The notes under the pieces: generated by a model
Told to the model about the DNA's origin: nothing
Databases searched by the model: none
What the model saw: only the letters and a program-made list of their open reading frames with translations
Shown here: positions 1,325 through 23,392 of the stretch, piece by piece
Layout of the letters: every line of letters begins with the position of its first letter
How positions within the stretch are numbered: position 1 is the stretch's first letter
Assembly: GCA_003857395.1 (NCBI GenBank)
Contig: RPRC01000120.1
Span: 1 to 26,232, forward strand
DNA from: Geobacter sp.
GTDB lineage: Bacteria; Desulfobacterota; Desulfuromonadia; Geobacterales; Geobacteraceae
Length of the DNA: 26,232 nt
Direction of reading: 5' to 3'
Made by a program: the position numbers and the translations under genes

Positions 1325-1419
1325 GGGTTTCCTAACATATCCGGGTTATTTGTACCATCAGTAGGACAAAAGAACCATCACCTGAGATAACAGCACACCA
1401 ATACCAAGGAGGATTTATC

Positions 1420-3021: not shown

Positions 3022-3025
3022 TGAT

Positions 3026-3074
3026 GCTTGGGAAACAATCCCCCTTCACGATGAGGGGGGATTGTTTCCCGAGT
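3026..3074. repeat. Strong hairpin between hcp and the rubredoxin-like gene
   Basis: A perfect 15-base inverted repeat runs 3030-3044 against 3056-3070, with an 11-base loop; two further pairs plus G-U pairs extend it outward. No T-run follows, so it is not a clear intrinsic terminator. It may instead act as an mRNA stabiliser or partial attenuator that sets different expression of hcp and the downstream genes. Confidence 0.6.
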
Positions 3075-3106
3075 TGATGCGAAGAGGTAAGAAGGAGGTG
3101 AATGTC

Positions 3107-3226
3107 ATGCAAAAAGCAAAGCGCTGGCAGTGCACTGTCTGCGGATATATACACGAAGAGGCTGCCCCGCCAAAAATATGTCCGAAATGTGGTGTCGATC
3201 GTTCGAAGTTTGTACCGTACAAGTAA
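3107..3226 (+). CDS. 39-residue rubredoxin-like (rubrerythrin C-terminal type) protein
   Basis: A very short gene encoding MQKAKRWQCT... and ending VDRSKFVPYK. It has two knuckles, CTVCGY (residues 9-14) and CPKCG (25-29), that would hold one iron in a rubredoxin-type FeS4 site. The spacing between knuckles is short, as in the rubredoxin domain that ends rubrerythrins, rather than in classical 52-residue rubredoxins. AGGAGG lies 8 bases before the ATG at 3107. It sits between hcp and a flavodiiron protein that lacks its own rubredoxin domain, so it is a plausible electron donor to one or both. A shifted ATG at 3102 gives no recognisable protein. Confidence 0.88.
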   Translation: MQKAKRWQCTVCGYIHEEAAPPKICPKCGVDRSKFVPYK

Positions 3227-3312
3227 GAAGGAACCGTCCGTGGCGCCGCAAAGATTGCGATTGAGTTGAGGCGACCGGATTTTCCCCGGAGACATGTGGA
3301 GGAGGATTTTCT

Positions 3313-7590: not shown

Positions 7591-7641
7591 CAAGCTGAAA
7601 CAGCGGCTTTCGAAGTCACAATACACACGGTGGGAGAAGCT

Positions 7642-9081
7642 GTGAAAAAATCACCACAACTGTTTTTGCTGGACGGCTCCAGTTACATCTACCGCGCCTA
7701 TTACGGTGTCCGTGACCTTGCCACCTCCGGCGGCATGCCGACCAATGCCGTGTTCGGCTTTACCAGGATGCTGCTGTGCCTCCTCCAGGAACACAGCCCC
7801 GAGTACCTGGCCGTGGTCTTCGACCGTCCGCGGGAGGAAACCTTCCGCCGCGAACTCTATCCCGAATACAAAGCCAATCGCGACGCCATGCCCGAGGATC
7901 TCGTCCTGCAGGTTCCGTATATCAGGAAGGTCCTGCAGGCACTGAATATCCCGGCCCTTGAAGCCCCCGGTTTTGAAGCAGATGATGTCATTGCCAGCCT
8001 GGCCCGCCGCTCTGCCGCGGAAGGACTCCGGGTAACGGTAGTTACCGGCGACAAGGACCTGATGCAGATTGTCGGAGAGAGAATCTGCCTGCTGGACACC
8101 ATGAAGGACTGCTGTTCGGGACCGCTGGAAGTCCTTGAGCGTTTTGGCGTCCCCCCCGAACTGGTACCCGATGTCCTGGGGCTGGCCGGCGACACCGCGG
8201 ACAATATCCCGGGCGTTCCGGGAATCGGCGAAAAAACAGCCGCCAAGCTGGTCAAGCAATTCGGCTCCCTGGAAGGCGTCTTCCGCTGGAAAGATCTGGT
8301 CAACGGCAAGAAGCGCCGCGAAAGTTTACAATCCTATCAGGATCAGGCCCTGCTCTCGAAAACCCTGGCGACCGTCAGGTATGATGTTGACCTGAAAGTG
8401 ACCCTGGCAGATCTGCAGCGGCAGCGGCCGAATCTCTCCGACTTGATTCCCTTGTTGCGTGAACTGGAATTCGAGGCACTGGCGGTCGCCTTCACCCCAC
8501 CCCCAGCGGGCGTGGTCGAAATCCACTGCGATGGCTCGGGACAATCCTCGGGACCGGGGGGCTACGGCGTGATCCTCCGTTATGGGGAGAATGAAAAGGT
8601 GTTGAGCGGTTTTGAGCCGTCAGCCACCTCACAGAGGATGGAACTGCTGGCGGCGATTCGGGGGCTGGAAGCCCTGAACAACCCGAAGACGGTACGCGTG
8701 TTCAGCGATTCGCAGTACCTGGTCCGGGGCATGAGCCAATGGATTCAGGGCTGGATCCGCAAAGGTCGACTGTATACCCCGGATGCGCTCCTCAACCAGG
8801 ACCTCTGGCAGCAGCTTGTTTCCCTGGAGGCCAAACACAAGGTCAGCTGGGAATGGCTGCGGGGGCATGCCGGACACCCCTTCAATGAGCGCTGCGACAG
8901 ACTGGCAAAACGGGCAGCAGCGGACGGGATACGGGCAACCACAGCTGTTCAAAGCAAGGAAACAACCAAGGAAGAAAAGCCTATCCCTGAGCCGACTCCA
9001 CCTGCCCTGAAGATACCGCTTTCGCCCGGGGAGATGAGAGAATTCGAGGCCGACGAGGATGGCCAACTGAGGCTGTATTAA
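7642..9081 (+). CDS. Fusion protein: 5'-3' exonuclease (PolI N-terminal type) plus ribonuclease HI
   Basis: A 479-residue two-domain nuclease without a polymerase domain. Residues about 1-285 are the flap endonuclease/5'-3' exonuclease domain: LFLLDGSSYIYRAYYG, VVFDRPREETFR...YKANRDAMP, FEADDVIA, TGDKDLMQ, then the helix-hairpin-helix region LAGDTADNIPGVPGIGEKTA. Residues about 292-430 are RNase HI, with catalytic D297, E334, D356 and D419 at near E. coli spacing, plus an RGHAGHPFNERCD active-site region. A charged, proline-rich tail of about 50 residues follows. Both activities remove RNA primers, so a role in Okazaki fragment processing or R-loop removal is inferred. GGGAG five bases before the GTG at 7642 favours that start over the GTG at 7630. 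The stop codon overlaps the inverted-repeat element that follows. Confidence 0.92.
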   Translation: MKKSPQLFLLDGSSYIYRAYYGVRDLATSGGMPTNAVFGFTRMLLCLLQEHSPEYLAVVFDRPREETFRRELYPEYKANRDAMPEDLVLQVPYIRKVLQALNIPALEAPGFEADDVIASLARRSAAEGLRVTVVTGDKDLMQIVGERICLLDTMKDCCSGPLEVLERFGVPPELVPDVLGLAGDTADNIPGVPGIGEKTAAKLVKQFGSLEGVFRWKDLVNGKKRRESLQSYQDQALLSKTLATVRYDVDLKVTLADLQRQRPNLSDLIPLLRELEFEALAVAFTPPPAGVVEIHCDGSGQSSGPGGYGVILRYGENEKVLSGFEPSATSQRMELLAAIRGLEALNNPKTVRVFSDSQYLVRGMSQWIQGWIRKGRLYTPDALLNQDLWQQLVSLEAKHKVSWEWLRGHAGHPFNERCDRLAKRAAADGIRATTAVQSKETTKEEKPIPEPTPPALKIPLSPGEMREFEADEDGQLRLY

Positions 9082-10323: not shown

Positions 10324-10338
10324 TGGCACAGGATTTGC
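10324..10338 (+). promoter_or_regulatory. Sigma-54 (-24/-12) promoter of the Fap-like operon
   Basis: TGGCAC (10324-10329), five bases, then TTGC (10335-10338): a match to the sigma-54 consensus at every conserved position, with GG and GC separated by exactly ten bases. Transcription would start near 10350, about 55 bases before the ATG at 10405. A sigma-54 activator with an intact GAFTGA motif is encoded in the same locus. Confidence 0.85.
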
Positions 10339-10404
10339 CTACTAAAAAAATAACAGCGCTGGCATGGTACCGTGCCCTATAAAACAAAGAAAGAGGAGGT
10401 AGTT

Positions 10405-11511
10405 ATGAAAAAGTATTCGGTAGCAGTTCCGGTAGTAATTGCACTTCTGACATTTGGGGTTTCAGGAAAAGTTATGGCATTGGACGTTGTAGTACCTGTT
10501 GCCGTCGATAGTTCCACCGCGGTCGGCGTAAATGACACCCTCAACGACAACGCACTGTTGAACGACGATGTAAGTGGCAAAGCGGCGGCGAATGATCAAT
10601 CCATTGCCACAAGTGACAGTCTCAACGGCAACAAACTGCTGAACGACGATGTAAGCGGCAAGGCAGCGGCGAATGATCAATCCATCGCCACAAGTGACAG
10701 TCTCAACGGCAACAATATCGCGGCTGACGATTCAATTGCGGTAAAAGACAGCGTGAATGGCAATACACTGACCGACATCGCCAATGACAAATCCAGTAAC
10801 AACGGCGATGCTGTAGCATTTGGCGCTGACAATGCTGTAGCAAACAACGGTTCAATAGCAATCGTGGATGACAGCATCAACATTTCCGATATCAGGGTTG
10901 CAGTTGCCACCAGTATTCTGGATGGTGAAGTTTCGTACAACGAGATTTCATTCGGAAACGGTACAGAGATGAAAGCATACGGTAACGAGGGCGGGTCCGC
11001 AGTTAACCTCTCATCCCAGAAGAACAAGGCGGCCGGATTAAATGGCGCACTGCAGGCTAACGGCACAGGTCAGGGTAACGGTGCCTTGCAAGGTAATGGC
11101 GCACTGCAGGGTAATGGCGCACTGCAGGGTGGAGAGACGGCAACTGCCGATAACAACGCTTATGATGTCGACGCCGAAGCGAACGGTTCTGACTTCGCAC
11201 TCGGGAAAAACGAGTCGGGCCAAGCCAACCTGGCACTCGGCGCCAATAAGGCCAAATCAGAAAACGAAGCATTCGGAGCCAACCTGGCAAGTGAAGCCAA
11301 CACTTCTGAACAGCATGCCGCTGCAACTACTGGCGATTACAGTGTGGTACAGGCGGCGTCGTATTCTCTTGCAACCGGTGCTAACAACCTGGCCGGTTCC
11401 ATAACCGCTAACGGAATTAACTCTGTCGCCATGAACACTGGAATTAACGCCCTGTTCCAGCAGTCAGTAAATGTTCAGGCAACAGTGAATAATCCCGGGA
11501 CAGTTCAGTAA
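10405..11511 (+). CDS. Repeat-rich exported protein, candidate Fap-type amyloid fibre subunit (FapB/FapC-like)
   Basis: A 368-residue protein with a signal peptide (MKKYSVAVPVVIALLTFG, cleaved near VMALD). The mature chain is low-complexity, rich in Asn, Ala, Ser, Gly and Asp, and has no cysteine. A 27-residue repeat (NDDVSGKAAANDQSIATSDS...) occurs twice almost identically at 10561-10722 and then decays. A hexapeptide repeat of type GNGALQ occurs five times at 11038-11127. The C-terminal part (NSVAMNTGINALFQQSVNVQ) recalls the Asn/Gln-rich repeats of Pseudomonas FapB/FapC amyloid subunits. AGGAGGT before the ATG at 10405, and the signal peptide, exclude the upstream GTG at 10372. First gene after the sigma-54 promoter; assignment as fibre subunit rests on composition plus the neighbouring FapD-, FapE- and FapF-like genes. 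Confidence 0.75.
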   Translation: MKKYSVAVPVVIALLTFGVSGKVMALDVVVPVAVDSSTAVGVNDTLNDNALLNDDVSGKAAANDQSIATSDSLNGNKLLNDDVSGKAAANDQSIATSDSLNGNNIAADDSIAVKDSVNGNTLTDIANDKSSNNGDAVAFGADNAVANNGSIAIVDDSINISDIRVAVATSILDGEVSYNEISFGNGTEMKAYGNEGGSAVNLSSQKNKAAGLNGALQANGTGQGNGALQGNGALQGNGALQGGETATADNNAYDVDAEANGSDFALGKNESGQANLALGANKAKSENEAFGANLASEANTSEQHAAATTGDYSVVQAASYSLATGANNLAGSITANGINSVAMNTGINALFQQSVNVQATVNNPGTVQ

Positions 11512-11525
11512 TTGCAGGCCGATAT

Positions 11526-11550
11526 CTGGTGGCGGTCGCCCCGCCACCAG
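11526..11550 (+). promoter_or_regulatory. Intercistronic stem-loop after the fibre-subunit gene
   Basis: A perfect 10-base stem, CTGGTGGCGG (11526-11535) with CCGCCACCAG (11541-11550), and a 5-base loop, without a T-run, in the 79-base gap between the first and second genes. It could protect the upstream message or cause partial termination, giving a large excess of the first protein over its helpers. Confidence 0.6.
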
Positions 11551-11590
11551 ACTTCCGAAAGTCACGTAACTCAAGAGGAGGCGGGAGAAG

Positions 11591-12001
11591 ATGCGAAAAT
11601 TCATGTTATCTTTGCTAGCGATATTTGCTCTCTGCGGCAGTGTGCTGATTGCGCATGTGTCGAATGCGGAGCAAGCCTCTCCGACTCCGGTACTAGAGCA
11701 GTCTTCAATGGATATTTCCGGCTTCGGACCAGCCCTGTCGAGCGATAATCTGGGCTCCCTGTCGGGACGACAGGCCTTGCAGATTGAAAAATTGGACACA
11801 ATAGTCAGTAATGTTAGTATGAACGGCAACCTGAATGACAACTCAATATCTGTTGGTGACAACAGTCAGTCATTGACGGGCAACAATTCAATAGCCGGCG
11901 AAGCATTTAAAGACATGAACGGATTTGCCACTGTCATTCAGAACTCAGGCAATCAGGTGCTTATTCAAAATGACCTTATTGTCAATGTTCTCGTAAACTG
12001 A
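11591..12001 (+). CDS. Small exported protein of the Fap-like locus (minor component)
   Basis: A 136-residue protein with a signal peptide (MRKFMLSLLAIFALCGSVLIAHVSNAEQ, cleavage near SNA). The mature part has an LGSLSGRQAL segment near residue 55 and an Asn/Ser-rich middle. It ends with alternating hydrophobic residues, TVIQNSGNQVLIQNDLIVNV. That VIQN-GN-IQN pattern recurs at the end of the protein encoded at 12725, so the two look like distant relatives. AGGAGG lies 9 bases before the ATG, and the FapD-like gene starts 13 bases after the stop. A role as minor fibre component, nucleator or periplasmic chaperone (FapA/FapE-like) is inferred from position and composition only. Confidence 0.65.
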   Translation: MRKFMLSLLAIFALCGSVLIAHVSNAEQASPTPVLEQSSMDISGFGPALSSDNLGSLSGRQALQIEKLDTIVSNVSMNGNLNDNSISVGDNSQSLTGNNSIAGEAFKDMNGFATVIQNSGNQVLIQNDLIVNVLVN

Positions 12002-12014
12002 TCAGAAGGATGCC

Positions 12015-12728
12015 ATGAAACGGTATGCGGCACTTAAAACGGGACTCCTGACATTTGCACTCACAGCAACTGTTTCTCAAGCAGAGGCAGGCCCGGTTGT
12101 AGTACCTGGCGTATCAGGCAGCAGCTTCACTGTTGATAAGGTAACGAGCCTGAAAGAGGCGCGTTACCTGTCGACAATCCGCCAGCAGTATGATTTCAGC
12201 TGCGGCTCAGCAGCGCTGGCATCCCTGCTTACCTTTCATTACCAAGACACGGTCACCGAACAGGAAGTCTTTATTTGGATGTACAAACACGGCGATCAGG
12301 CAAAGATACGCCGTGAGGGCTTTTCGCTGCTTGACATGAAACGGTACCTTGAAGCCAACGGCTACAATGCGGACGGCTTTTATGTCTCGCTGGACCAGTT
12401 GGCAGTCGCAGAGGCACCGGCAATCGTTCTGATCAATACCAAAGGCTACAACCATTTTGTGGTGGTGAAAGGCGTGACCGACAAAAATGTGCTGGTGGGA
12501 GATCCATCTTTGGGAACCAGGATTATCCCGCGAGAAGAGTTTGAAAAAATGTGGAATGGTCTGGTATTTATCATTCGCAACAGGAACATTTTGACAACAA
12601 ACAATTTCAACCGAATGGAAGAATGGCGTCGCGTAAAGGAAAAAGCACCGCTGGGTCTCGCCTTGAGAGACAGTGCCCTGGCAAATACTACTATGCTGAT
12701 GTCGGGGCCGGGAGGGGTCGGTCAATGA
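12015..12728 (+). CDS. fapD: FapD-like C39-family cysteine peptidase
   Basis: A 237-residue protein: signal peptide (cleavage near AEAG, residue 26), then a C39 papain-like domain. The catalytic set is visible: oxyanion Q57 and nucleophile C63 in RQQYDFSCGSAALASLL, H146 in YNHFVVVKG, and D162 in VGDPSLG. C39 domains in bacteriocin exporters cut leader peptides. In Fap systems the stand-alone, exported member is FapD, required for amyloid secretion. Residues 185-237 form a charged tail outside the core fold. It lies in an operon, 13 bases after the previous gene, and its stop overlaps the next start as ATGA, indicating translational coupling. Family and periplasmic location are well supported; its substrate here (the fibre subunit or the pore) is inferred. 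Confidence 0.88.
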   Translation: MKRYAALKTGLLTFALTATVSQAEAGPVVVPGVSGSSFTVDKVTSLKEARYLSTIRQQYDFSCGSAALASLLTFHYQDTVTEQEVFIWMYKHGDQAKIRREGFSLLDMKRYLEANGYNADGFYVSLDQLAVAEAPAIVLINTKGYNHFVVVKGVTDKNVLVGDPSLGTRIIPREEFEKMWNGLVFIIRNRNILTTNNFNRMEEWRRVKEKAPLGLALRDSALANTTMLMSGPGGVGQ

Positions 12729-13348
12729 AAAGGTTATGGAATAAAAGATTAGCCTCGGCCGCGTCGTTGACAGCGATTTTCGTGCTGGGGGGGAACCTCA
12801 CGGCTTTTGCAGACCAGTATATATTTGCGAACCGGCAGACTGTAACAATCCCCGAGTTAGATGCAATGCGCGGCGGATTTGTAACGAACGGCGGATTGCA
12901 GATTTCACTGGGAATCATTAAAGCTGTGTTAGTTGATGGTGTGCTGCAAACAGTCAATTCTCTCAATATTTCGAATATAACGAATGTAAACAACTCACTC
13001 AAAAATGTCACGACCGGTTCACTGCAAGTCAACAACATACCGTCAGAACCCGCGACAGGCCAAGCATCTAACGTTGAAACCGGCAATGCACCGAACAATG
13101 ATAGCACTATCGTACAAAGTTCCGGAATCCAGCTGCCTGTCCAACAGGAAAATGTGCCGAATCAACAATCCGGCGGCACCACTCTCGTACAAAACCTCGG
13201 AAACCTGACACTGATCCAGAACAGTTTGGACCAGAAGGTAATCCAGAATATTACCATTGTAAACACGACAGTGAACAGTCTCAGCATGCTCCGCCAACTG
13301 AACATGACCTCAAACATCAAGCAGCAATTCATCAATATGCTGCACTAG
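12725..13348 (+). CDS. FapE-like exported protein of the amyloid locus
   Basis: A 207-residue protein with a signal peptide (about residues 1-31, ending LTAFADQ). The mature N-terminus carries ELDAMRGGF and GLQISLGIIKAVLVDG, a segment typical of exported Fap/FapE-type proteins as I remember the family. A polar Asn/Gln/Pro linker follows. It ends with TLIQNSLDQKVIQNITIVNT and a helix NSLSMLRQLNMTSNIKQQF. The ATG at 12725 overlaps the fapD stop and has GGGAGGGG 7 bases upstream; longer frame-open starts inside fapD are shadows. FapE is an extracellular minor component in Pseudomonas, and I infer the same here. The shared VIQN C-terminal pattern links it with the 11591 protein. Confidence 0.72.
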   Translation: MKRLWNKRLASAASLTAIFVLGGNLTAFADQYIFANRQTVTIPELDAMRGGFVTNGGLQISLGIIKAVLVDGVLQTVNSLNISNITNVNNSLKNVTTGSLQVNNIPSEPATGQASNVETGNAPNNDSTIVQSSGIQLPVQQENVPNQQSGGTTLVQNLGNLTLIQNSLDQKVIQNITIVNTTVNSLSMLRQLNMTSNIKQQFINMLH

Positions 13349-13399
13349 AGCCTGTCGGACTTAGGGTAAATCTGCCGCGCATCTGGATTAGGTCCCTGC

Positions 13400-13603
13400 A
13401 TGAAGAAAATCCCAGTATTCACATATGATGACGACAAGTGTCAGGACGTGCCGGATTACCTGCTCGGTGAGTTAATAGCCGCGGGCAGGATCAGATCCTT
13501 TCGCAGGGCCTCCGGATGGGTGGTAATAGGTCGTGACCCTATCAGAGAATTGGGCAAAAGGGTAGAGGGGATGAATAGTGCGAAAGAAGGTCAAGTAAAA
13601 TAG
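13400..13603 (+). CDS. Small GSU3473-family protein
   Basis: A 67-residue cytoplasmic protein beginning MKKIPVFTYDDDKCQDVP. The core LLGELIAAGRIRSFRRASGW followed by VVIGRDPIR matches a small, uncharacterised family that I recall from Geobacter genomes as GSU3473-type. Basic residues (RIRSFRR) and the tight G-W-V-x-I-G motif suggest a compact single domain; function unknown. The ribosome site is weak (AGGT). It follows the FapE-like gene by 51 bases with no terminator visible, so it may be the last gene of the operon or an unrelated neighbour. Confidence 0.75.
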   Translation: MKKIPVFTYDDDKCQDVPDYLLGELIAAGRIRSFRRASGWVVIGRDPIRELGKRVEGMNSAKEGQVK

Positions 13604-13988
13604 TACCATGCTGCAACTTTCACATAGGGTAATCGGAGAATGTCTCAACAATAACTATCCCCTCCGCCTCAAGCTGCCGACCAGATTCTACCTGCTGAAA
13701 TCTTCACATACTCAAATATTTCGACACAATTCAAATCTTTCTGCCCTGAACAAGATCTTTGGGAGGGTATCGAAAACGATACGATAGGCCTCCCCTCTCC
13801 GGCATTCTTTCCACATTGCACTTCAATCAGGAACTACATGGTACATGGTATTTTCAGGAACCCTGCGGAACAGACTTTTTTCTCAAAACAAAAATCCACT
13901 GATGGAAGACACAGAAAAGCCAGGTCAAGGCATGAATTTTTCCTGCCCTTACCTGGCTTTCCGCTTCAGTGAATGGACTTGAAAAGAT
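13604..13988. other. Non-coding region between convergent units
   Basis: I find no gene here. It holds a small inverted repeat GTATCG-AAAA-CGATAC (13767-13782), a short direct repeat of ACATGGTA-type sequence near 13838-13852, and the large hairpin at 13897-13971. It separates the plus-strand Fap-like operon from the minus-strand activator/pore pair. Confidence 0.5.
13897..13971. terminator. Bidirectional terminator hairpin between convergent units
   Basis: AAAGCCAGGT (13916-13925) pairs with ACCTGGCTTT (13951-13960), with an outer CACTGA/TCAGTG pair (13897-13902, 13966-13971). Read on the minus strand the stem is followed by a T-run, so it should terminate the fapF-like gene, which ends 18 bases away; the plus-strand T-run is shorter. 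Confidence 0.65.
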
Positions 13989-15278
13989 TTAAATACTGAT
14001 CGGAACCCGCAATGTCAACTGGATATCAGGTGCATCTTGTGTAATACCAGCTTCGAGAGAAAAATTGATATTGACCCTGTTGCTCAACCGATACGAAGTC
14101 CCGAATACCAGGCTTCCCAGCGTGGTTGTCTGAGTTGCCGTTGGCGCAATAATAACAGAGGTGTTGTGTATTTCAGTCGGCATTACCAGGTAATGCTCGT
14201 AGCCGACACTGAATGATGTCTTTTCGTTCAAGGAAAAACCAATGCCGAAATTTAAGCCAAACGTGCCGCCTGGCTCGATATCTGTTTTTACGCCATTAAT
14301 GGGTTGGTCAGCCTGGAAATTATACAGATAGTTGACCGAACCGAAAAAAACCACCGGGTCAGTAGGGAAGATCACCGAAAGGCTCGGCTGAATTCCCCAA
14401 AAACCCGTTCCGGTTGGCAACTCTTCCTCATTACCGAGGGAATCGATGGGGACATGGAAAGGATCTTTTCCCGTAGGTGTTTTGGCAAGCAAACCGCCTA
14501 TGAAGATCGGGCCGCTGCCGGTTGGCATATTGAACTGATAGCGAAGGCCGAACTGCACGTCACCCAGATTATGGCCTCGGGCATTGAAGACCTGCTGAGT
14601 TGCGTCCGGGACATTTTGCGCAGTTTCCACCGAAGAATCATCCCGGTAAACAAAAGGCACATAAACCTGCATTTCGAGACGGTTTGTCAGGCCATAGCGC
14701 AAGGTGAGAGCCGGTATATAGGTGTTCCGATTGACGCTCTGGACATCTATGAGGCCGATGGTAATTGCAGGGACAATGGTGAACCCGCTCAGCACAACCC
14801 GATTGGATGAGGAAAAAGCGTATTGGAAGGAAGGCTCGAGGACAATCGTACCCTTGGGTGTCAGTACTCCTTGCCGGGCAAAAATTGCTTCAATCTCCTT
14901 ATACTGTTTAGATACGACCGGTTTCTCCGGAGGGCGGCCTACAGGTTGCGAAGGGAGTTGATCCTGCGACTGGGCTGCTTGTTTTCCACCTGCATCTTTC
15001 TCATTACTCCTTGTTTCCACGGGGGCATCCTGGTTCGGGAATTGACCAGTGTCAGCGCCTCCCCTGATATCAAGTGACCGATCATCCGCTCCGAATTGTC
15101 GCTGCAGTTTCTCGATTTGAAGCTGTTGTTCCTTCAGTTGCTGGCCCTGTTGTTCGACAATTTTCTTGAGTTGACTTGCATCATCCACTTGTGACTGGCC
15201 GGGCGGATTCCCGGCATAACAAGGGAGAGTCATACTGACTGCGAAGAGTAGTACAGATAAATGCAAACTTTTTTTCAT
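13989..15278 (-). CDS. fapF: FapF-like outer-membrane amyloid transporter
   Basis: A 429-residue protein with FapF architecture. A signal peptide (1-22, ending CYAG) is followed by a Gln/Lys-rich coiled coil (about 34-62), a long polar linker (63-122), and a short helix SKQYKEIEAIFARQG (123-137) that matches the pore plug. From about 141 comes a beta-barrel starting VLTPKGTIVLEPSFQYAFSS. The following GFTIVPAITIGLIDVQSVNR and RYGLTNRLEMQVYVPFVYRD strands are hallmark Fap-pore sequence. The Pseudomonas homologue is a trimeric 12-strand pore that passes Fap subunits across the outer membrane. GGAGGG precedes the ATG. It is encoded 60 bases downstream of the activator gene on the same strand and converges on the fap-like operon, whereas in Pseudomonas fapF is the last gene of one fapA-F operon. 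Confidence 0.9.
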   Translation of the reverse strand: MKKSLHLSVLLFAVSMTLPCYAGNPPGQSQVDDASQLKKIVEQQGQQLKEQQLQIEKLQRQFGADDRSLDIRGGADTGQFPNQDAPVETRSNEKDAGGKQAAQSQDQLPSQPVGRPPEKPVVSKQYKEIEAIFARQGVLTPKGTIVLEPSFQYAFSSSNRVVLSGFTIVPAITIGLIDVQSVNRNTYIPALTLRYGLTNRLEMQVYVPFVYRDDSSVETAQNVPDATQQVFNARGHNLGDVQFGLRYQFNMPTGSGPIFIGGLLAKTPTGKDPFHVPIDSLGNEEELPTGTGFWGIQPSLSVIFPTDPVVFFGSVNYLYNFQADQPINGVKTDIEPGGTFGLNFGIGFSLNEKTSFSVGYEHYLVMPTEIHNTSVIIAPTATQTTTLGSLVFGTSYRLSNRVNINFSLEAGITQDAPDIQLTLRVPISI

Positions 15279-15338
15279 CTTGTTCCCTCCTTTTTCATCG
15301 AATAAACAGCAGTCGGAAGTTTACCAGCAAAGATTCAC

Positions 15339-16676
15339 TCAAACTATGATATTAAATTTGTTGATAAGTCTGTATAGAGTTACACGTGATACCCCAAGAT
15401 CTTTTGCCGTTTTTGATATATTGCGATTGTTAATATCCAGGTAGCGTAGAATAACCTCAAGTTCCGCCTTATCTCTGGCGTCATCCAGTGATATCACATT
15501 CCGCGGTGCTGCTCGCTTCTCCAATCCAAGATCAGCCGGGGTTATCAGGCGGTGCTCGCACATCACCATAGCGCTCCTAATGAGATTCATCATTTCCCGA
15601 ACGTTACCCGGCCAATCGTAAACAGACATAACTCTCAGAGCCTGCTTGCTGAAACCCTTGACCGTATGATTCCTTTCTCCCGCGAATTCCTCGAAAAAAG
15701 TCCTTGCCAGCAGTTCAATATCTCCGTCCCGTTCGCGCAGCGGGGGAATTTTCAATTTAAGGACATTGAGCCGGTAATAGAGGTCCTCTCGGAATCGGCC
15801 CTCTTCCAAGGCATTTTCCAAATCTACGTGGGTGGCTGCAATCACGCGCACATCAACCTTTGTGGCTTCATTCGAGCCAACCCGCTCGATGGTCTTTTCC
15901 TGCAGAAAGCGCAGCAGGTTTACCTGCAGGTCCAGGGATAGGTCTCCTATTTCATCCAGAAAAATTGTCCCCCCCGCTGCTGACTCGATTCGCCCGGACT
16001 TACGTTGAAAAGCACCGGTAAATGCGCCTTTTTCATGGCCGAATAATTCGGATTGGATGAGATGGCTGGGCAGCGCCCCGCAATTTACCGCGACAAAAGG
16101 TGCTCGACTACGCGCCGAATGCTGATGGATCGCCCGCGCAGCCAGTTCTTTGCCGGTACCACTTTCGCCCCTGATCAGGACGGATGAATCGGTATTCTGG
16201 ATCTTGCGAAGATTGGCATAGAGTTCTTGCATAACCGGACTTATTCCGATCATCTGAAACTCACCGATATGAGGGTTTTGGATGGCCAGACTGCTTTTGA
16301 GGCGGGCCTTGCCAAAGGCTCGTCCCAGAGTAACCAGCAGGCGCGGCATGTCCAATGGCAAGGTATGGTAATCGTAGAAATATTCAAGAATAAACCTGCC
16401 GGAATTTTCAGATTGCAGAAAACTGGACGGCACAATTGCGATCCATTCCATATGGCTGCCCAGCAAGAGGAGTTCTTCAAATTTTTCCAGGACTGTGGCC
16501 GCTAAATTCTCAAGAAAAAACAGCCCTATATAACAGTCCTGGATTTCTTTGAGGCAGGAATTTGCCGACTCGATATCCGTAGTCGTTATCAGCTCCCACC
16601 CCTCTTTGCAAAGTTCTTTCGCAGGGAATTTGGACATGGTATTCATGCAAATTACGAGGATTTTTCGTTGCGACAT
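15339..16676 (-). CDS. VpsR-like sigma-54-dependent transcriptional activator
   Basis: A 445-residue enhancer-binding protein. Residues 1-125 form a receiver-like domain without an obvious phospho-acceptor aspartate where the beta-3 strand should end. It includes an LGRAFGKA segment resembling the N-domain of VpsR, the c-di-GMP-responsive biofilm regulator of Vibrio. The AAA+ domain has Walker A GESGTGKE (170-177), GAFTGA (217-222) and FLDEIG (239-244), so contact with sigma-54 should be functional. A Fis-type helix-turn-helix (NISKTAKDLGVSRVTLYRLI) closes the protein. The ATG at 16676 has GGAG 7 bases upstream; the ATG at 16682 is too close. It lies directly upstream of fapF and near a consensus -24/-12 promoter, so control of the locus is the simplest reading. 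FleQ plays a comparable c-di-GMP-linked part in Pseudomonas. Confidence 0.9.
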   Translation of the reverse strand: MSQRKILVICMNTMSKFPAKELCKEGWELITTTDIESANSCLKEIQDCYIGLFFLENLAATVLEKFEELLLLGSHMEWIAIVPSSFLQSENSGRFILEYFYDYHTLPLDMPRLLVTLGRAFGKARLKSSLAIQNPHIGEFQMIGISPVMQELYANLRKIQNTDSSVLIRGESGTGKELAARAIHQHSARSRAPFVAVNCGALPSHLIQSELFGHEKGAFTGAFQRKSGRIESAAGGTIFLDEIGDLSLDLQVNLLRFLQEKTIERVGSNEATKVDVRVIAATHVDLENALEEGRFREDLYYRLNVLKLKIPPLRERDGDIELLARTFFEEFAGERNHTVKGFSKQALRVMSVYDWPGNVREMMNLIRSAMVMCEHRLITPADLGLEKRAAPRNVISLDDARDKAELEVILRYLDINNRNISKTAKDLGVSRVTLYRLINKFNIIV

Positions 16677-17398
16677 CTTCATTCTCCACTACCAAAGGTA
16701 CCAACCTTTCGTGGCACCTCAGGCCTGATATAACTAGGAAGACGGTGAAGACCACGGGAGTAAGCGTATCGGTAAGGGCAAAAATTCAGAAGTTATTAGA
16801 TGATTTGCCTATGCCCTTTAAAGCAGCAAGCGCATCAGAGTTGAAGAAGTTTCTATCAGGGTGGTTGAGGCGCACTTTCTGATCCACACAATCTTTCTGA
16901 CAATAACTGTAAAGTGCAATTGATCAATGTCAAGTGGCGTACCCTTCAGAATACACATAAAACATGATACAAAATCTATGATATATAAATTATTAGCATG
17001 GAATACTATTGCAATATAATCTATTTTTAGTAACTAGCATAGATTTGTCACAAACAGAATTAGAATTTTCACAATCAACCCGCCTACAATGTTAATATAT
17101 TTTTATTTGAATGTTTTTCAGCAAGACACTTTAGTACCGGGAAAATGAATTTCTATTTTCCATAACCGAACTCAAGGCAGGGTTGTTGAACAGTGAACAC
17201 CATAATTTCGCTTAAGCCACTTTTTTTATTTGCAGAAATTTCTCTCGTAGACAGCGGGGGTACTGAACAAATATTATCCTAACAAAACAATGCGACTTGA
17301 AGTTCGAGAATTATTCAGTAAAGTTTTAGAAGAATTTTTATCCAGATCTAAGCAAGAGAAATAAAGTTTTCAGACGAATATTGAACAGAGGGAAACCA
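16677..17398. other. AT-rich divergent intergenic region
   Basis: About 720 bases between the activator gene (minus) and the AMIN gene (plus) with no coding signal. The part near 16960-17160 is strongly AT-rich. CTGTAAAG at 16917-16924 repeats an arm of the inverted repeat upstream of the sigma-54 promoter. A TGGAATACTATTGC sequence near 16999 resembles a -24/-12 element but has 9 instead of 10 bases between GG and GC. Promoters for both genes must lie here. Confidence 0.45.
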
Positions 17399-18481
17399 AT
17401 GGACCAGATATTTTACACTACAGGAGAGGAGACTACACGACGCACCGGGCCACGCACTTCTTTGGCAACGGCTATACTTTTTCTGATGGCAGCCTTTCTT
17501 CTTTGCCAAACAAGTTGCACAAAAGGCACTTATTTCGGCAAAAAACACGGGCTTGAAAATACTCAGGCAATCTTGCAGGATATAATAATCTCTGAAAATA
17601 GTACCAAAATAGCTATTCTTGCAAACAAGCCTCTGAAATATTCACTTCACAACATTGCCGAACCACCCCGGGCAGTTGTTGACCTTTACTCAGATGTACT
17701 CAGTCCTTTCATGCCTCCCGTAAAAATCAATACTTCTCTGGTCAGCCAGATTGATATTATAAAAAAAGAAACTGATGGTCGAATATTTACACGGGTTATA
17801 TTCAAGCTGAAGCGGAGCGTTGCATTTTCCGCAAAAACGGATCCTTCCCGCGTCAATGCGATACTATTGACCGTTACGCCCCCCCAGGAAAGTATCCAGG
17901 CAGGTGTCGAAACAAAACCCGACGGAGCGGTCCCGAAAGCTGAAACCGTAAACACCAATCAGCCAAAAGAGCACACGGACACTACTGACCGGTTCGGACG
18001 CGACAACACCACAATGCCGGCAAATTTCAAACATTCGCCCGCTGTCGACTCAAAAGTTTCCTCACCAGGTTCCCCCCTACCAGAAACCGGAACGCCAAAA
18101 CCTGTTGTTTTCCCGGAGACCGACAAAATATCCAGGAACACCGACGAAATACAGAGGCAATGCACTACGAAGAATACCGTGTATGGAATTAATTTTATTC
18201 AGAATGGAATAGAAATAGCTCTGAACGGTCTGGATGATGACAACTTAAAGTTCTTCAAGCTGACAAGGCCTCAGCGTTTGGTAATTGATTTATTCGGGGT
18301 CAAAAACTCACTTGAGAGAAATCTTATTCCGGCAAATCGCTTCGGGATTAAAAGTATCCGTATCGGAACATATCCTTACAAGGTCCGCATAGTACTAGAT
18401 TCTTCCGAGAAAATTTTCCCTGCCTGCAGAATCAGAACAGACAACCGGGGCGCTCAAGTTCTCTTTAACAACAATCCCTGA
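17399..18481 (+). CDS. Exported or membrane-anchored protein with two AMIN domains
   Basis: A 360-residue protein. A hydrophobic segment, SLATAILFLMAAFLLCQTSC (about residues 22-41), follows a charged N-terminus; it may be a lipoprotein signal (cysteine 41) or a membrane anchor, although the lipobox is imperfect. Two AMIN-like domains follow: about 55-155 (AILQDIIISEN...PPRAVVDLYSD...) and about 262-358 (YGINFIQNGIEIALNG...RPQRLVIDLFGV). A Pro/Thr/Asp-rich linker of about 100 residues joins them. AMIN domains bind peptidoglycan and occur in amidases and PilQ-type secretins, but no amidase or secretin domain is present. AGAGGG 8 bases before the ATG at 17399 makes it preferable to the TTG at 17381. 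A periplasmic, cell-wall-binding accessory role is inferred. Confidence 0.75.
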   Translation: MDQIFYTTGEETTRRTGPRTSLATAILFLMAAFLLCQTSCTKGTYFGKKHGLENTQAILQDIIISENSTKIAILANKPLKYSLHNIAEPPRAVVDLYSDVLSPFMPPVKINTSLVSQIDIIKKETDGRIFTRVIFKLKRSVAFSAKTDPSRVNAILLTVTPPQESIQAGVETKPDGAVPKAETVNTNQPKEHTDTTDRFGRDNTTMPANFKHSPAVDSKVSSPGSPLPETGTPKPVVFPETDKISRNTDEIQRQCTTKNTVYGINFIQNGIEIALNGLDDDNLKFFKLTRPQRLVIDLFGVKNSLERNLIPANRFGIKSIRIGTYPYKVRIVLDSSEKIFPACRIRTDNRGAQVLFNNNP

Positions 18482-18639: not shown

Positions 18640-19635
18640 CTAACGGAGAGTTTTCTTTCTCGTTAGGACAGATTTATTTTCTGAAAAAGCAATCTGTTCT
18701 TCAATCCATTGATAGGTCGCTATCAACCCATTGAGAAGAGGCTGTTGGGGTGACCAGTCAAGTTTTTCCCTGACCAGACAATTATCGGATCTTCGCCCGC
18801 GAACCCCCTGCGGACCAGGAATATGTATGGCTGACAATTTTTTACCGGATAATGTGATGATCATATTTGCCAACTGGTTAATCGTCACCATTTCTTCAGA
18901 ACCGATATTGACTGGGCCCGTGAAGGATGATTTCATGAGTCGCATCACTCCTTCAATACACTCGTCAATAAATAAAAATGACCTGGTCTGATAGCCATCC
19001 CCCCATATTTGAATTGGGCCGTCACCAGCCATTGCAACTTTTCTGCAGAGCGCGGCGGGAGCTTTCTCCTTTCCCCCTTGCCATGTTCCCATCGGACCAA
19101 AAATATTATGGAATCGTGCAATTCTCACGTCGATCCCATAATTTCTGCAATACGCCAGGTAGAGACGTTCACTGAACAGCTTTTCCCACCCATATTCACT
19201 GTCCGGGTTGGCAGGATATGCAGAGTCTTCCGAGCAAACAGGGTTATCTGCATCATCCTGATTATGTTCGGGATAAATACAGGCTGATGAAGCATAGAAT
19301 AATTTTTTGCTACCGTTCAGACGGCATGCTTCTACCATATTCAAATTTATCATCGCTGAATTTTGCATGATAGCGGCATCATTATGCCCGGTAAAAATAT
19401 ACCCGGCTCCCCCCATATCTGCAGCTAACTGAAACACCTCATCAAACTGTTCATCCATAAGTTCAAGACATGACCCCGGACTCCGCAGATCTGCAATCAC
19501 AAAAGAATCGGCCTTTGTTTTTTCAAACTCAGGATAATTGAGATCAACGCCCCTGACCCAATAGCCTTCTTTTTTGAGCCTGTTAACTAGGTGGTGACCG
19601 ATAAATCCGCCTGCCCCGGCAACCAGAGCTTTCAT
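18640..19635 (-). CDS. GDP-mannose 3,5-epimerase-like extended SDR enzyme
   Basis: A 331-residue NAD-dependent epimerase. GAGGFIGHHL (residues 7-16) is the Rossmann dinucleotide site. AADMGGAGYI (71-80), RFHNIFGPMGTWQGG and EKAPAA are hallmarks of GDP-mannose 3,5-epimerase. The plant catalytic set is conserved at the same spacing: S117, C119, Y148, K152 and K191 correspond to Arabidopsis S143, C145, Y174, K178 and K217. It should convert GDP-D-mannose to GDP-L-galactose and/or GDP-L-gulose for surface glycans; other NDP-sugars remain possible. GGAGGGG about 7 bases upstream fixes the ATG at 19635 rather than 19671. It is 41 bases downstream of a glycosyltransferase gene in the same direction, so it is probably in one operon. 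Confidence 0.85.
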   Translation of the reverse strand: MKALVAGAGGFIGHHLVNRLKKEGYWVRGVDLNYPEFEKTKADSFVIADLRSPGSCLELMDEQFDEVFQLAADMGGAGYIFTGHNDAAIMQNSAMINLNMVEACRLNGSKKLFYASSACIYPEHNQDDADNPVCSEDSAYPANPDSEYGWEKLFSERLYLAYCRNYGIDVRIARFHNIFGPMGTWQGGKEKAPAALCRKVAMAGDGPIQIWGDGYQTRSFLFIDECIEGVMRLMKSSFTGPVNIGSEEMVTINQLANMIITLSGKKLSAIHIPGPQGVRGRRSDNCLVREKLDWSPQQPLLNGLIATYQWIEEQIAFSENKSVLTRKKTLR

Positions 19636-19676
19636 ACTAGCCCCCTCCATTTCCGCACTTTCAATGCACAACCAGA

Positions 19677-20876
19677 TTAGAGCCGGAGTAGTCTACAAAG
19701 TTTCTGTTCCAGCATCGGCAGGTTGTTTACCGCATGATATTGGTCAAACTCCGCTCTCTCCAAGAGAGTCTCTCTGTTGCGAACATCAATCAAATAGTTA
19801 ACCGCTTCTAAAATTTCAGCCAATTTGCCTTCTGCAACAGTAAGCCCCAGTTTGTACTCTTCTACTCGTTTTCCCATGCAATACTTTTTACTGACGATAA
19901 CCGGCTTCCTGAATACAGCAGCCTTCGTCAGCAGCCCACTGCTATGATAAAATTTATCATACACAAGGTAGAGGATGTCACTCAGATTGACCAACGAGTT
20001 AAACACCGCTGCATCAGCGATATACTCCAAAATAAAAGAACAATTCTCACTGTTTCCCAGACTAAGAAGCCTTTTCAATTCTTCTCGTTCTGCAGGAATA
20101 AAGTCTTCCACGTTCAACTCGCCCGCCAACAGAAAATAACACTGATCAGGAGCTAGTGTCTCAGCCACACGTAAAAAATTAAGGACTCCTTTCCGTGGAT
20201 TCAGAACCCCAATCAGTCCGATGATTGGCCGTCCCGCCGCCTTCTGACGAATTTCAGTAACCCAATCCGCAGCAATGTCCGGCAATTGTTCATCAGTTAC
20301 ATCAGGCACAAGAATAACAGGTTTTTTGCCTATACTTTTTGACAAGTCAGCATACGCGCCGTCGTCCAAAATACCAACGCCATAACAGTTATCAGATTTG
20401 AAAATACCGTTGTTTCTCTTCATCTTACGGTTTCGTTTTTGCTGACGCATCTCTACGTCACTTCGAAAGATACCCGGCAAAAAATACAGCCCAACCCATG
20501 GATACGTCATAAAGTACCTGATACATGGAGATTGCCATCGCTTATCGGGAAACATGCCATCTAACCAGGTTAAAAGCAGAATATCAACTGACCATCCTGT
20601 ACTCCTCTCAGCCAAGCGGATATGGTCGCGGATACTTCTCCATAGCAGTATTTTTCTGAAAGAACTTTTGTCTTTACCCAGTGCGAAATACGAGGCATAG
20701 AACCTGTCGACATACTTTGGAATCGCGTTATCTACCCAACATTCCATAGCCTGTGGTTGGGGACACAAAACAATAACCCTACAGCCCTTCTTCAGTAGTA
20801 TCGGAACAAATAATTTCATTTGTGTTTCATAATGGCCGACCCACATCATTTCGGCAATTACAACAACTTTTCCCAT
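19677..20876 (-). CDS. Glycosyltransferase, GT-B fold (family 4-like)
   Basis: A 399-residue cytoplasmic protein. The N-terminal domain starts GKVVVIAEMMWVGHYETQMK, an acceptor-domain glycine loop. The C-terminal domain contains IIGLIGVLNPRKGVLNFLRV (about residues 216-235) and YKLGLTVAEGKLAEILEAVN, which match the nucleotide-sugar-binding half of GT4-type enzymes. The usual E-x7-E motif is poorly conserved (DKFYHSSGLLTKAAVFRKPV), so the family call is moderate. GAGGGG lies 7 bases before the ATG. It sits between the epimerase gene and a frameshifted glycosyltransferase, in a minus-strand polysaccharide cluster. By eye it is AT-richer than the AsmA and hcp regions. The sugar it transfers is unknown. 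Confidence 0.75.
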   Translation of the reverse strand: MGKVVVIAEMMWVGHYETQMKLFVPILLKKGCRVIVLCPQPQAMECWVDNAIPKYVDRFYASYFALGKDKSSFRKILLWRSIRDHIRLAERSTGWSVDILLLTWLDGMFPDKRWQSPCIRYFMTYPWVGLYFLPGIFRSDVEMRQQKRNRKMKRNNGIFKSDNCYGVGILDDGAYADLSKSIGKKPVILVPDVTDEQLPDIAADWVTEIRQKAAGRPIIGLIGVLNPRKGVLNFLRVAETLAPDQCYFLLAGELNVEDFIPAEREELKRLLSLGNSENCSFILEYIADAAVFNSLVNLSDILYLVYDKFYHSSGLLTKAAVFRKPVIVSKKYCMGKRVEEYKLGLTVAEGKLAEILEAVNYLIDVRNRETLLERAEFDQYHAVNNLPMLEQKLCRLLRL

Positions 20877-21072
20877 TCAAGTACCCCTCAACACACAAAC
20901 TTCTGGCCACGTATCGACATCATGAATTTTTATCATTTTTTTGTTCACGCCTGCCACCCCTGAAACATCTCTCGTAATCAAACATGATGTCACTGGAATT
21001 CCATAAGAAGCCCCTAAAAATGGACATCCTCGGGTGGTCAAGTTAGATGTATTGACTTTTATGGGAAGAATA
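20877..21072. other. Short gap between glycosyltransferase genes
   Basis: No gene is supported. A minus-strand open frame crosses this gap (to 21107) and contains NTSNLTTRGCPFLGASYG, but it overlaps the end of the upstream glycosyltransferase and lacks a good start. It may be chance or a remnant. Confidence 0.35.
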
Positions 21073-22172
21073 TCAGAAAGTCGAACCTGAGCCCGGAACT
21101 TCCCCAAGATGTTTTACAATAGTTTGATAGGCAGTTTGTGCAGAGTTTCTCCAGGAAAAACGCTGAGCATCTTCGTGAGCAGTCCACCCCTTAGCCAAAA
21201 CTTCGTCCTGGCTCTCAAATGCCCTTCTCATGAGAAAGCGAAGATGCCGGATATCCGGTTCAACCATTGCCCTGAGTGAATAGCAAAATCGTCATCGTGA
21301 GCATCAACCAGGCGTTCCACATCAAGCAAATAGCCGTTATCATCAGTAACAAAATCCACTGGAGCACTGTAACGAGTAACAATTGCTGGAACTCCGCAGG
21401 CCATCGATTCCAAAATAGGAAGTCCCCAACCTTCTGCCCTTGTCGGCATAACAAAACAATTGGCTGATCTATACAGTGCACGCAATGATATTGGATCGCA
21501 TTTTTCACTGAGGCGTATGTTGTTTACGTTTGATATTCCCAAGTCTTCGAGTTTCTTTTCCATCGAAAATCCTTGAATATATGGATTATGCGCGTGGAGA
21601 ATCAGCTCAACACCCTCTTTGGGATGAAATTCTTCAGTAAACGCTTTAATCAGCCCATCTTGGAATTTCCGTTCTTCCCACTTACCAACCATAAAAAATC
21701 TGAATTTACCGGAATATTTTTGGCCTGGCGTAAAAAAATCATTGTCCACGCCTGCGGGAACAATGAAGACTTTTTCCGGTTGAATGCCGTTAGCAGTGAG
21801 ATTTTGTCTTCCCCAGGAAGATGGTGTCCAGACATAATCAGTAGAGAGACAAAGTTCTCTTTGCGAAAGTGGAAGCCGGGTAGTTTCCCACACATTCCAA
21901 CACGCGGTAGTTTGTGGATGGGATGATCCACCAGAAATCACAACCCCGAAGTTTCCATAAAACTTTTTTCGCCCCAGCAGTCGCAACATTTGCTTATAAA
22001 ACGACTTTCGCAGTTTCGAACGACTATCCGTCCAGTAATTTACATGGGCAAACTCTCCCATTGCTTTTGAAAAACAGCTGGAAAACGTTGTCCAACCTGT
22101 CGCTTCTAACCGATGGCCGTATAGATCAATTGTCAACCTTCCCTTGAGACGTTTTCCCACACAGTACCTCAT
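21073..22172 (-). pseudogene. Glycosyltransferase family 4 gene interrupted by a one-base frameshift
   Basis: Reading from an ATG at 22172, a GT4 protein runs for 303 residues. It has VPAGVDNDFFTPGQ, a KWEERKFQDGLIKAF segment, ANCFVMPTRAEGWGLPILES (E-x7-E region) and GVPAIVTRYSAPVDFV. At 21264 the frame slips and soon stops at 21228. The missing C-terminus (VEPDIRHLRFLMRRAFESQD...RFSWRNSAQTAYQTIVKHLG) is intact in the next frame to 21073. One extra G on the coding strand, in a GG run, would restore a normal 366-residue enzyme. That pattern fits a recent inactivating deletion or a homopolymer sequencing error. The start has no clear ribosome site. The ORF itself looks otherwise unaltered. Confidence 0.8.
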
Positions 22173-22228
22173 AACGGTGTAAACAGTATTCGTGTTCAGC
22201 TACAAGTAACGGTACGGAACGCCGCCGC

Positions 22229-23392
22229 TTACCTTGTTGCGCTCAAGAGCTCCTGAAAAAAGGTCCGGACAATGCGATGATTATCTGCTTTAGAAGTAAG
22301 TTCGTGGGCCAGAGCAGCCATCATGAGTCCAAGTCGATCCCTGGCCCCAGGGTACTGGAATGTCAGGGCAATCCTGGCTGCGGCGTTCTGCAGAGCTTCA
22401 TCAGTCACAGAAAGCTGGTCATCTTCCTTGTAAATCATCAGCACGCCCGATCGGTCACCAAGCACCTGCGATGAGCCGCCCACCGTCGTCGTCGCAACGG
22501 GGACGCCGTTCTCCATGGCCTGCAAGGTTGAAAAAGGCAGAAATCCCTCCTGCCGGCTTGTCATGACATGCAGATCCAGGGCTGGAAGCAGATCCAGAAG
22601 ATCCGGTTGCGCCCCCCTGAGATGAATCCTGTCCCGCAGTGGTGAACGTTCCCGGTCCTCATGCAACGATTCCAGCACCCCTTCACGGGGGAGGCCTGCG
22701 ATCAAGACATGAACCGGGGAGGCAAGGCGCGGTTCCAGCATTTCCGCCAATGAAATAAGTCTGTTCAATCCCTTGTGATGGTCCAGGCGGCCCAGATACC
22801 CCATCAAGAAGGCTTCCCGGGGAATACCCAACCGATCGCGAACATCTTCACACGAAATCTGGTTCCTGTTACTGCCCCGGTATGAGCTGAACAGGGGATG
22901 TATGACTTGTGCCTCTTGAGGTCCCAACATGGCACTGACTCTTTCACGAAAATCCCAGCAGAGAACCCACGACTCCACCACACGGGCCACAGGCAGGTAA
23001 TCCCTCAAATGCGTTTCGTAGTGCTCGTGCAAGATACCAAACACCCTGGGGCCAAGCCAGAAACGATGCAGGAACCTCAAGGCTTTCAGCATGCGACGGG
23101 TTGGCCAGACGATAACCAGAAGTTCGGGACGCTGCTTCAGGAGCCACAGCCCGGCATCCAGGGAACGTTCAAGATGGACCACATGGCGGATATTAGGGTT
23201 TCGCGCCCTCAGCTCATCTTCCTGGAACCGTTCAGAGGGGTAATCCTGAAAGACCACACTGATATCGACAGGCAGTTCCGCGAGGCTGGCAATATACTCC
23301 AGCATGACCCGTTCGCTGCCTCCATAACGGAGGTTCACGCAGGAAAAAGTAATATGAGGGCGTTTTGCTACGGTAAGATTACGTTCAGGCAT
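22229..23392 (-). CDS. Glycosyltransferase family 4 protein
   Basis: A 387-residue GT-B enzyme. The N-terminal domain has FSCVNLRYGGSERVMLEYIA (glycine-rich acceptor-side loop, about 15-34). The C-terminal domain has MGYLGRLDHHKGLNRLISLA (about 193-212), DLLPALDLHVMTSRQEGFLP and STLQAMENGVPVATT, with the E-x7-E donor-binding pair. It probably adds a hexose to a lipid-linked or surface glycan, using an NDP-sugar in the cytoplasm; donor and acceptor are not predictable. Its start at 23392 overlaps the end of the upstream gene by 25 bases, with no clear ribosome site, which points to translational coupling. By eye its GC content is higher than that of the glycosyltransferase genes further downstream. 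Confidence 0.87.
   Translation of the reverse strand: MPERNLTVAKRPHITFSCVNLRYGGSERVMLEYIASLAELPVDISVVFQDYPSERFQEDELRARNPNIRHVVHLERSLDAGLWLLKQRPELLVIVWPTRRMLKALRFLHRFWLGPRVFGILHEHYETHLRDYLPVARVVESWVLCWDFRERVSAMLGPQEAQVIHPLFSSYRGSNRNQISCEDVRDRLGIPREAFLMGYLGRLDHHKGLNRLISLAEMLEPRLASPVHVLIAGLPREGVLESLHEDRERSPLRDRIHLRGAQPDLLDLLPALDLHVMTSRQEGFLPFSTLQAMENGVPVATTTVGGSSQVLGDRSGVLMIYKEDDQLSVTDEALQNAAARIALTFQYPGARDRLGLMMAALAHELTSKADNHRIVRTFFQELLSATR

Follow-up and report, generated by a model that had tools for sequence, protein, structure and literature searches.

Where does the protease of a functional-amyloid (Fap) secretion system cut, and does its substrate carry a recognizable site? FapD is a periplasmic protease that is needed for FapC secretion and whose target has been described as unclear, and Fap proteins are said to lack canonical C39 sequences (PMC5557850); according to a 2025 review, processing by FapD probably concerns the N-terminus of FapE together with the periplasmic part of FapF (PMC12822426). 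This question is raised by a locus at positions 10324-16682 of a 26,232-nucleotide stretch of DNA from Geobacter sp. (contig RPRC01000120.1; the whole stretch is referred to as the window), in which genes for a FapD-like C39 peptidase and a FapF-like pore accompany those for three further exported proteins, P1, P2 and P4. The locus is quite probably a Fap-related two-step protein secretion system that carries the FapD-type cleavage signal in its double-glycine form. A broader proposal is more evenly balanced: that in its ancestral form, Fap-type secretion involved a Sec-exported protein whose double-glycine leader, placed behind the signal peptide, was cleaved by a free C39 peptidase in the periplasm, and that [LM]-x-x-[LMIQ]-R-G-[R/K] before [F/Y] in FapE is the FapD cleavage site, which the publications consulted had not located.

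Six open reading frames (ORFs) were borne out in this region. A sigma-54 site precedes a four-gene operon, P1-P2-C39-P4, all of whose products have signal-like N-termini expected of exported proteins, and the pore and activator genes lie on the minus strand, convergent to the operon. The features are as follows.

10324-10339, plus strand: sigma-54 (-24/-12) site TGGCACAGGATTTGCC, 65 bases ahead of the P1 start
10405-11511, plus strand: P1, exported repeat-rich protein of 368 residues, cysteine-free after the signal
10540-10701, plus strand: tandem pair of 27-residue repeats (residues 46-99 of P1), identical at up to 26 of 27 positions
11395-11490, plus strand: P1 C-terminal domain, common to P2 at the family level
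11591-12001, plus strand: P2, small exported protein of 136 residues
11750-11770, plus strand: candidate leader end L-G-S-L-S-G-R (P2 residues 54-60)
12015-12728, plus strand: FapD-like C39 peptidase with signal peptide, 237 residues (PF03412, E 1.8e-23)
12725-13348, plus strand: P4, small exported protein (207 residues) whose family is related to FapE, overlapping the C39 ORF by 4 bases
12857-12877, plus strand: double-glycine leader end LDAMRGG (P4 residues 45-51), predicted cut before F52
13989-15278, minus strand: FapF-like outer-membrane pore, with a helix at residues 31-63 (coiled coil), a linker, a plug helix at residues 122-133 and a barrel
15057-15074, minus strand: LDIRGG in the pore linker (residues 69-74), candidate second C39 site
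15339-16682, minus strand: VpsR-domain sigma-54 activator of 447 residues (Pfam: VpsR domain, E 5e-18, and sigma-54 domain)

Double-glycine leaders follow a consensus with a hydrophobic residue at -12, Leu at -7, Met, Leu or Ile at -4, and a final GG (Gly or Ala at -1). In P4 of the window, the signal-like N-terminus is followed by V-T-I-P-E-L-D-A-M-R-G-G and then F (residues 40-52), a sequence that fits this consensus. Pooling pore and peptidase relatives with seven gammaproteobacterial loci gave 86 non-redundant C39 loci (numbered with an L below), of which six were chosen after the motif had been seen and the other 80 were found through the pore or the peptidase. A P4-type gene lies just downstream of the C39 gene in 84 of them and a P2-type gene just upstream in 85 (78 and 79 of 80 when the motif-chosen loci are left out), and one locus counted as missing P4, L065, has a long ORF that does hold the motif. 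Because the iterated profile hidden Markov models (HMMs) of P2 and P4 pull in each other's families, they were used to find genes by position alone, with kinship taken from separate HMM searches, from profile comparison and from matches to the FapE model.

Motif statistics cover 83 of the 84 P4 proteins, namely those scoring at least 6 with a scorer that prefers R-G-[G/R]-[F/Y]. All have R-G-G; position -7 is Leu in 79 and Met in 4, position -4 is Met, Leu or Ile in 63 (Ala, Ser, Gln or others in the rest), and the residue after RGG is Phe in 74, Tyr in 8 and Met in 1. The pattern [LIVM]xx[MLIVASQT]RGG[FYM], written after the P4 proteins had been seen, matches 84/84 P4, 1/85 P2 and 0/81 P1 proteins and 4 of the 13,537 remaining ORFs in these loci, the four including the L065 P4 and the L043 pore frame. 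Since the P4 profile covers the motif and the scorer prefers its letters, the 84/84 is to some extent built in; independent weight comes from the location next to the C39 gene and from the low background. R49, G50 and G51 are also invariant in a separate 42-row P4 alignment, and a low-confidence AlphaFold 2 model of P4 (mean predicted local distance difference test score, pLDDT, of 58) places a helix at residues 42-49, followed by an extended stretch. By these data, P4 carries a near-canonical double-glycine leader behind its signal peptide, with a predicted C39 cleavage site at its end.

The peptidase that would act on this leader is exported, as the original prediction, made from the DNA letters alone, had stated: a Peptidase_C39 domain is combined with a signal peptide, Pfam reveals no ABC domain, and the catalytic residues are kept at Q57, C63, H147 and D163, the first two having been placed correctly and the last two off by one (as H146 and D162). 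Among NCBIfam models it best matches FapD (E 1.2e-44, 152 bits against a cut-off of 330), ahead of FilB (E 5.7e-35, 121 bits against a cut-off of 475), and genuine gammaproteobacterial FapD proteins also fall under the 330-bit cut-off, at 197-284 bits. In a peptidase tree with ABC-transporter peptidases as the far group (drawn with a midpoint root and with long branches flagged), true FapD forms one clade (100/91), and the window-type sequences branch earlier without forming a single clade. This order would fit an ancestral GG form of the leader, short of proof, and the choice of Gly or Arg/Lys at -1 goes with the peptidase group.

Genuine fap loci, collected by FapD score from 274 gammaproteobacterial genomes (with longer regions for seven) and from Aeromonas caviae, are borne out by 50 distinct Fap repeats. 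The protein after FapD carries [LM]-x-x-[MLIQ]-R-G-[R/K]-[F/Y] and then F-G-[V/I/L] in 13 of 13 distinct fap loci; L54, R58, G59, F70 and G71 are invariant in six aligned FapE sequences, and six of six further FapE proteins above the NCBIfam cut-off (from genomes of 5.9-6.7 Mb) read [LM]-x-x-L-R-G-[R/K]-Y. In the FapE of L169, the motif comes shortly after the signal peptide. A FapE-model search of genomes returned 12 loci, 8 of which fit the motif; of the six lower-scoring ones, two fit, and those off the pattern include L175 (LRGK, then A) and L177 and L178 (IRGKF, then F-K instead of F-G), with no motif discernible by eye in L180. A protein search with genuine FapE gave no sequence named Pseudomonas among the matches listed.

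Over the motif region, the P4 and FapE profiles align across 30 columns with a score of 41.2 (E 6.8e-6); the highest score among 20 column shuffles is 16.4. The NCBIfam FapE model is matched by 4 of 42 P4 proteins (best E 2.3e-6) and is the sole family matched by more than one member, and a family scan of ten relatives' proteins yielded FapE, one weak match and nothing else. Judged by such comparisons, the P4 family is related to FapE and a FapE homologue at the family level. The FapE leader looks like a P4 leader in which the second glycine has become Arg or Lys, which suggests that the R-G-[R/K] motif marks the predicted FapD cut. The new content lies in the P4 leader, which offers one predicted answer to where FapD cuts: a near-invariant protease-type site in a FapE relative singles out one precise, degenerate counterpart in FapE itself. 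In the literature searched, comprising few subscription papers and no supplements, no description was found of an RGG site in FapE relatives or of the P1-P2-C39-P4 family.

The pore matches the NCBIfam FapF model at E 8.1e-47 (160 bits against a cut-off of 700), with FilC weaker (83 bits against 630), and its residues 140-426 match FapF crystal structures by sequence (E 1.2e-34). A single-chain AlphaFold 2 model (mean pLDDT 70; about 60-73 in the coil, mostly above 75 in the barrel, below 50 in the linker) shows the coil, linker, plug helix and barrel of the FapF fold, and Foldseek places FapF first (E 1.6e-19, target template-modeling score 0.81), ahead of the COG4313 structure 4rl8 at 1.9e-11. 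The predicted FapF-type pore with these four parts is thus upheld, FapF being its best fold match and profile similarity being present. That the pore is instead a COG4313-type small-molecule channel with coincidental neighbors, as its Pfam label (Phenol_MetA_deg) and the 4rl8 match might imply, is scarcely credible beside the far stronger FapF matches in sequence and fold, the coil and plug helix, and the occurrence of the pore in 82 of the 86 C39 loci, although most of these were found through the pore; a plain channel of this kind was therefore rejected.

In alignment A1, an RGG motif is present in the linker of 11 of the 17 nearest pores, that of the window included, and is absent from the other 11 rows. 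Such LDIRGG-like linker motifs in pores near that of the window lend some weight to another explanation, in which L-x-x-[ML]-R-G-[G/R/K]-[F/Y] is a conserved docking or secretion signal that the pore or the C39 protein reads uncut, and the peptidase acts at another position such as the pore linker. The Arg or Lys at -1 in FapE, which breaks the double-glycine rule, points the same way. FapF has itself been proposed as a possible FapD target, and C39-like domains without cleavage are known from type 1 systems; the same report, however, recovered no peptides from the first ~70 FapE residues by mass spectrometry (PMC5557850), an absence that speaks against an uncut signal. With the catalytic residues kept and the P4 motif fitting the double-glycine consensus, an uncut signal appears rather unlikely, and cleavage of P4 at RGG is preferred.

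The gene neighborhood is conserved among relatives. A pore-profile scan of GTDB genome contigs gave 493 relatives, the best 80 of which were used; a C39 relative is present in 69 of these 80 loci, in addition to the window. Among 141 Geomonas-order genomes surveyed for the peptidase, 22 have matches: 14 with a strong stand-alone relative (one of them with a weaker second copy as well) and 8 with weak matches alone, in frames of 553-747 residues that resemble ABC-transporter peptidase domains. Of 200 Janthinobacterium-order genomes, 17 have P2. Conservation of the neighborhood had been set beforehand as one of the points on which the Fap-type assignment could fail, and the neighbors were found to be kept together across relatives. 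The pore lies on the strand opposite to C39 in 56 of the 86 loci, on the same strand in 26 and outside the available DNA in 4, so the split, convergent layout does differ from Fap, as predicted, but is not peculiar to the window. On sequence grounds, a distinct Fap-related secretion family is described here; members were seen in the Geomonas order, the Betaproteobacteria and the Gammaproteobacteria, and sigma-54 control is linked to it.

The control region was predicted to contain a sigma-54 promoter of its own. TGGCACAGGATTTGCC, which has no mismatches, is the only sigma-54 match in the window at up to one mismatch, where 2.26 would be expected by chance; because a lone site could thus be chance, it gains its weight from the 69 other loci tested, 49 of which have a similar one. 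With the window counted in, 50 of 70 loci show a site (at least 9 of 11 positions) ahead of P1, against 1.07 expected from mononucleotide shuffles, though the loci are related by descent and the 70 cases are not independent; 45 of the 50 sites, as read from the list, sit 57-85 bases before the start. Under a loose criterion of composition, 81 of 85 loci have an ORF marked as P1-like ahead of P2; P1 genes and their start positions were assigned by simple rules, so single rows may be wrong. The activator has the VpsR domain, the sigma-54 ATPase domain with GAFTGA at residue 219, and the helix-turn-helix of VpsR-type regulators, in line with the prediction, and such a regulator is found in 38 of the 49 loci in which C39 is flanked by at least 6 kb on each side. 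Sigma-54 control had also been regarded as a difference from Fap, a view that does not hold for all Fap systems: among eight genuine fap regions of ~10 kb each, six have a nearby sigma-54 activator (L159, L160, L161, L162, L163 and L166), four of these with a VpsR-type N-terminus (L159, L160, L163 and L166), and five contain sigma-54-like sites.

The remaining exported proteins agree with their predicted character. P1 is repeat-rich, with an NGALQG hexapeptide run in addition to its near-identical 27-residue repeats, and is proposed as the main exported subunit. The C-termini of the two small proteins are related as expected, the P4 and P2 family profiles aligning with an hhalign probability of 95 (score 44.9 against 23.2 when shuffled), and the relationship includes the P1 family (probability 93, score 37.6 against a maximum of 12.5 in 20 shuffles). 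At E 1e-3, the P2 C-terminal HMM detects 84 P2, 18 of 81 P1 and 1 of 84 P4 proteins, plus one unlabelled ORF with a P1-like end; within the window it matches P2 (1.5e-19) and, weakly, P4 (0.018), leaving P1 unmatched. When it is run on genuine fap loci, the top-scoring ORFs are for the most part of FapB or FapE type (E 0.004-0.97), and an HMM of the 50 Fap repeats gives 12 matches among 13,787 ORFs (9 P2, 2 P1, 1 other; best E 0.27), so that a link of P1 and P2 to canonical Fap repeats is suggestive only. The candidate leader of P2 ends, at -3 to -1, in RGG in 49 of 85 proteins and in xGR in 23.

Several observations weigh against the proposed cleavage signal and the Fap kinship. P2 of the window has SGR rather than RGG at -3 to -1, and its P4 has no match to the FapE model. 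The -1 residue of FapE is Arg or Lys, neither of which any canonical C39 peptidase is known to accept there; moreover, where the two peptidase groups diverge (E101 to R/K, D120 to R), the charges are not of the sign expected from simple charge matching. The Fap-repeat HMM finds nothing in the window proteins, its best relative standing at E 0.27, and in profile comparison with the repeat, the P2 C-terminus reaches a probability of only 7.8 (score 15.1 against 11.4 when shuffled), while that of P1 (10.7) does not exceed its shuffles (11.8). No sigma-54 site lies within 350 bases of the start chosen for L144, whose peptidase (69% identity) makes it the nearest genome relative. Finally, some C39-FapF pairs (L112-L118 and L158) have no RGG partner beside the peptidase; from these pairs, the wider family may have at least one more substrate type.

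How close, then, is the locus to Fap? It shares a C39 peptidase with a signal peptide, a FapF-type pore with coil, linker and plug, a FapE-related protein adjoining the peptidase and, in most of the genuine fap regions compared as well, a nearby sigma-54 activator. It differs in scoring below the FapD and FapF cut-offs, in having no significant Fap repeats and a pore convergent to the operon, and in GG instead of GR or GK in the leader. In the profile searches, FapD and FapF are the best matches of the peptidase and the pore, both below cut-off, and P1, P2 and P4 show nothing above noise in Pfam or NCBIfam, where the presence of FapA, FapB and FapC models is unconfirmed; none of the three matches FapA, and neither does a presumed genuine FapA (L159, by position), which makes that test blind. 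Strict Fap membership was rejected on the scores below cut-off and the non-significant repeats. The predicted Fap-type locus accordingly stands as regards its FapD-like peptidase, FapF-like pore and conserved neighborhood, and falls as a fap operon in the strict sense: by sequence, the locus is a relative of Fap, probably with a similar mode of action. FapD and FapF are known to sit in larger families, loss of fapA and separation of fapF being the commonest deviations (PMC3792158), and colocalized fapD-fapF homologues were reported in 2018 from five further phyla (PMC6173800). The latter represent the same peptidase-pore pairing outside complete fap operons; the article text, its supplement aside, describes the pairing alone, with P2/P4 partners, the RGG motif and the sigma-54 site unmentioned.

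Other known systems combine similar parts. FilB and FilC of a putative pilus system (NCBIfam) are a related C39 peptidase and pore that match more weakly than FapD and FapF (121 versus 152 bits and 83 versus 160 bits) and below their own cut-offs, which places the locus outside FilABCDEF. Peptidase-containing ABC transporters share the logic of a C39 peptidase and a double-glycine leader but differ in that the window peptidase has no ABC domain and both it and its substrates have signal-like N-termini. In the Neisseria nap island, a C39 peptidase and a homologue of FapF occur together with small autolysis-promoting GG peptides (PMC11798529), which raises the idea that the small GG proteins here are bacteriocin- or Nap-like effector peptides exported by the C39 peptidase and the FapF-like pore, rather than matrix subunits. 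Nap peptides are cationic and below 10 kDa, and no P1-type repeat protein is mentioned in the part of that report available (PMC11798529), whereas P2 and P4 are precursors of 136-207 residues with signal-like N-termini, their families have a C-terminal domain in common with that of the larger P1, and the P4 family is related to FapE. An effector role is thus very unlikely, and a bacteriocin system was rejected on precursor size, the domain in common with P1 and the FapE kinship of P4.

For a Fap-related secretion system, the following course can be proposed. From the site and the gene linkage, the VpsR-type activator and sigma-54 polymerase would start the P1-P2-C39-P4 operon, and its products, given their signal-like N-termini, would cross the inner membrane by Sec together with the pore precursor. 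The periplasmic C39 peptidase would then cut P4 after LDAMRGG and before F, as the motif and its linkage to the peptidase gene suggest, and would probably also cut P2 after its double-glycine-type leader. By homology to FapF, a trimeric pore with coiled coil and plug would export P1, P2 and P4. In the least certain step, P1 and P2 might form a surface fiber or matrix, with P4 acting like FapE as a processed anchor or starter. A fiber or matrix role is the likeliest, if unproven, product of the locus, and the extracellular amyloid of the original prediction is an inference only.

Among the surrounding genes, an AMIN-domain protein with a lipobox-like signal (17381-18481, plus strand) is divergent from the activator. 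AMIN domains occur in the same protein as the pore in five pore relatives (P0033, P0036, P0037, P0038 and P0040), a hint that this domain may anchor the pore in the peptidoglycan; in L144-L158, the 6.5 kb around C39 showed no such gene. A GSU3473-family small protein (13400-13603, plus strand; NCBIfam, 62 bits against a cut-off of 40) lies between the convergent operons. An Rfam scan revealed no RNA at gathering scores. Giant ORFs of ~1,400-2,450 residues stand near many Geomonas-order relatives (L145, L146, L147, L151, L154, L156 and L157), with RHS/FG-GAP repeats in L145 and PKD/Ig-like domains in L156; a second family scan of ten proteins found matches in two giant neighboring ORFs alone, and no ORF of this size is listed in the window. 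Adjoining the locus at 18640-23392 (minus strand), an NAD-dependent epimerase and three group-1 glycosyltransferases are consistent with a surface or matrix polysaccharide cluster. Farther upstream, an ORF at 7630-9081 (plus strand), its translation read by eye, resembles a 5'-3' exonuclease followed by a ribonuclease H domain, and a TetR-type regulator, a hybrid-cluster (prismane) protein and a metallo-beta-lactamase/flavodoxin protein at 610-4503 (plus strand) possibly make up a nitric oxide response set.

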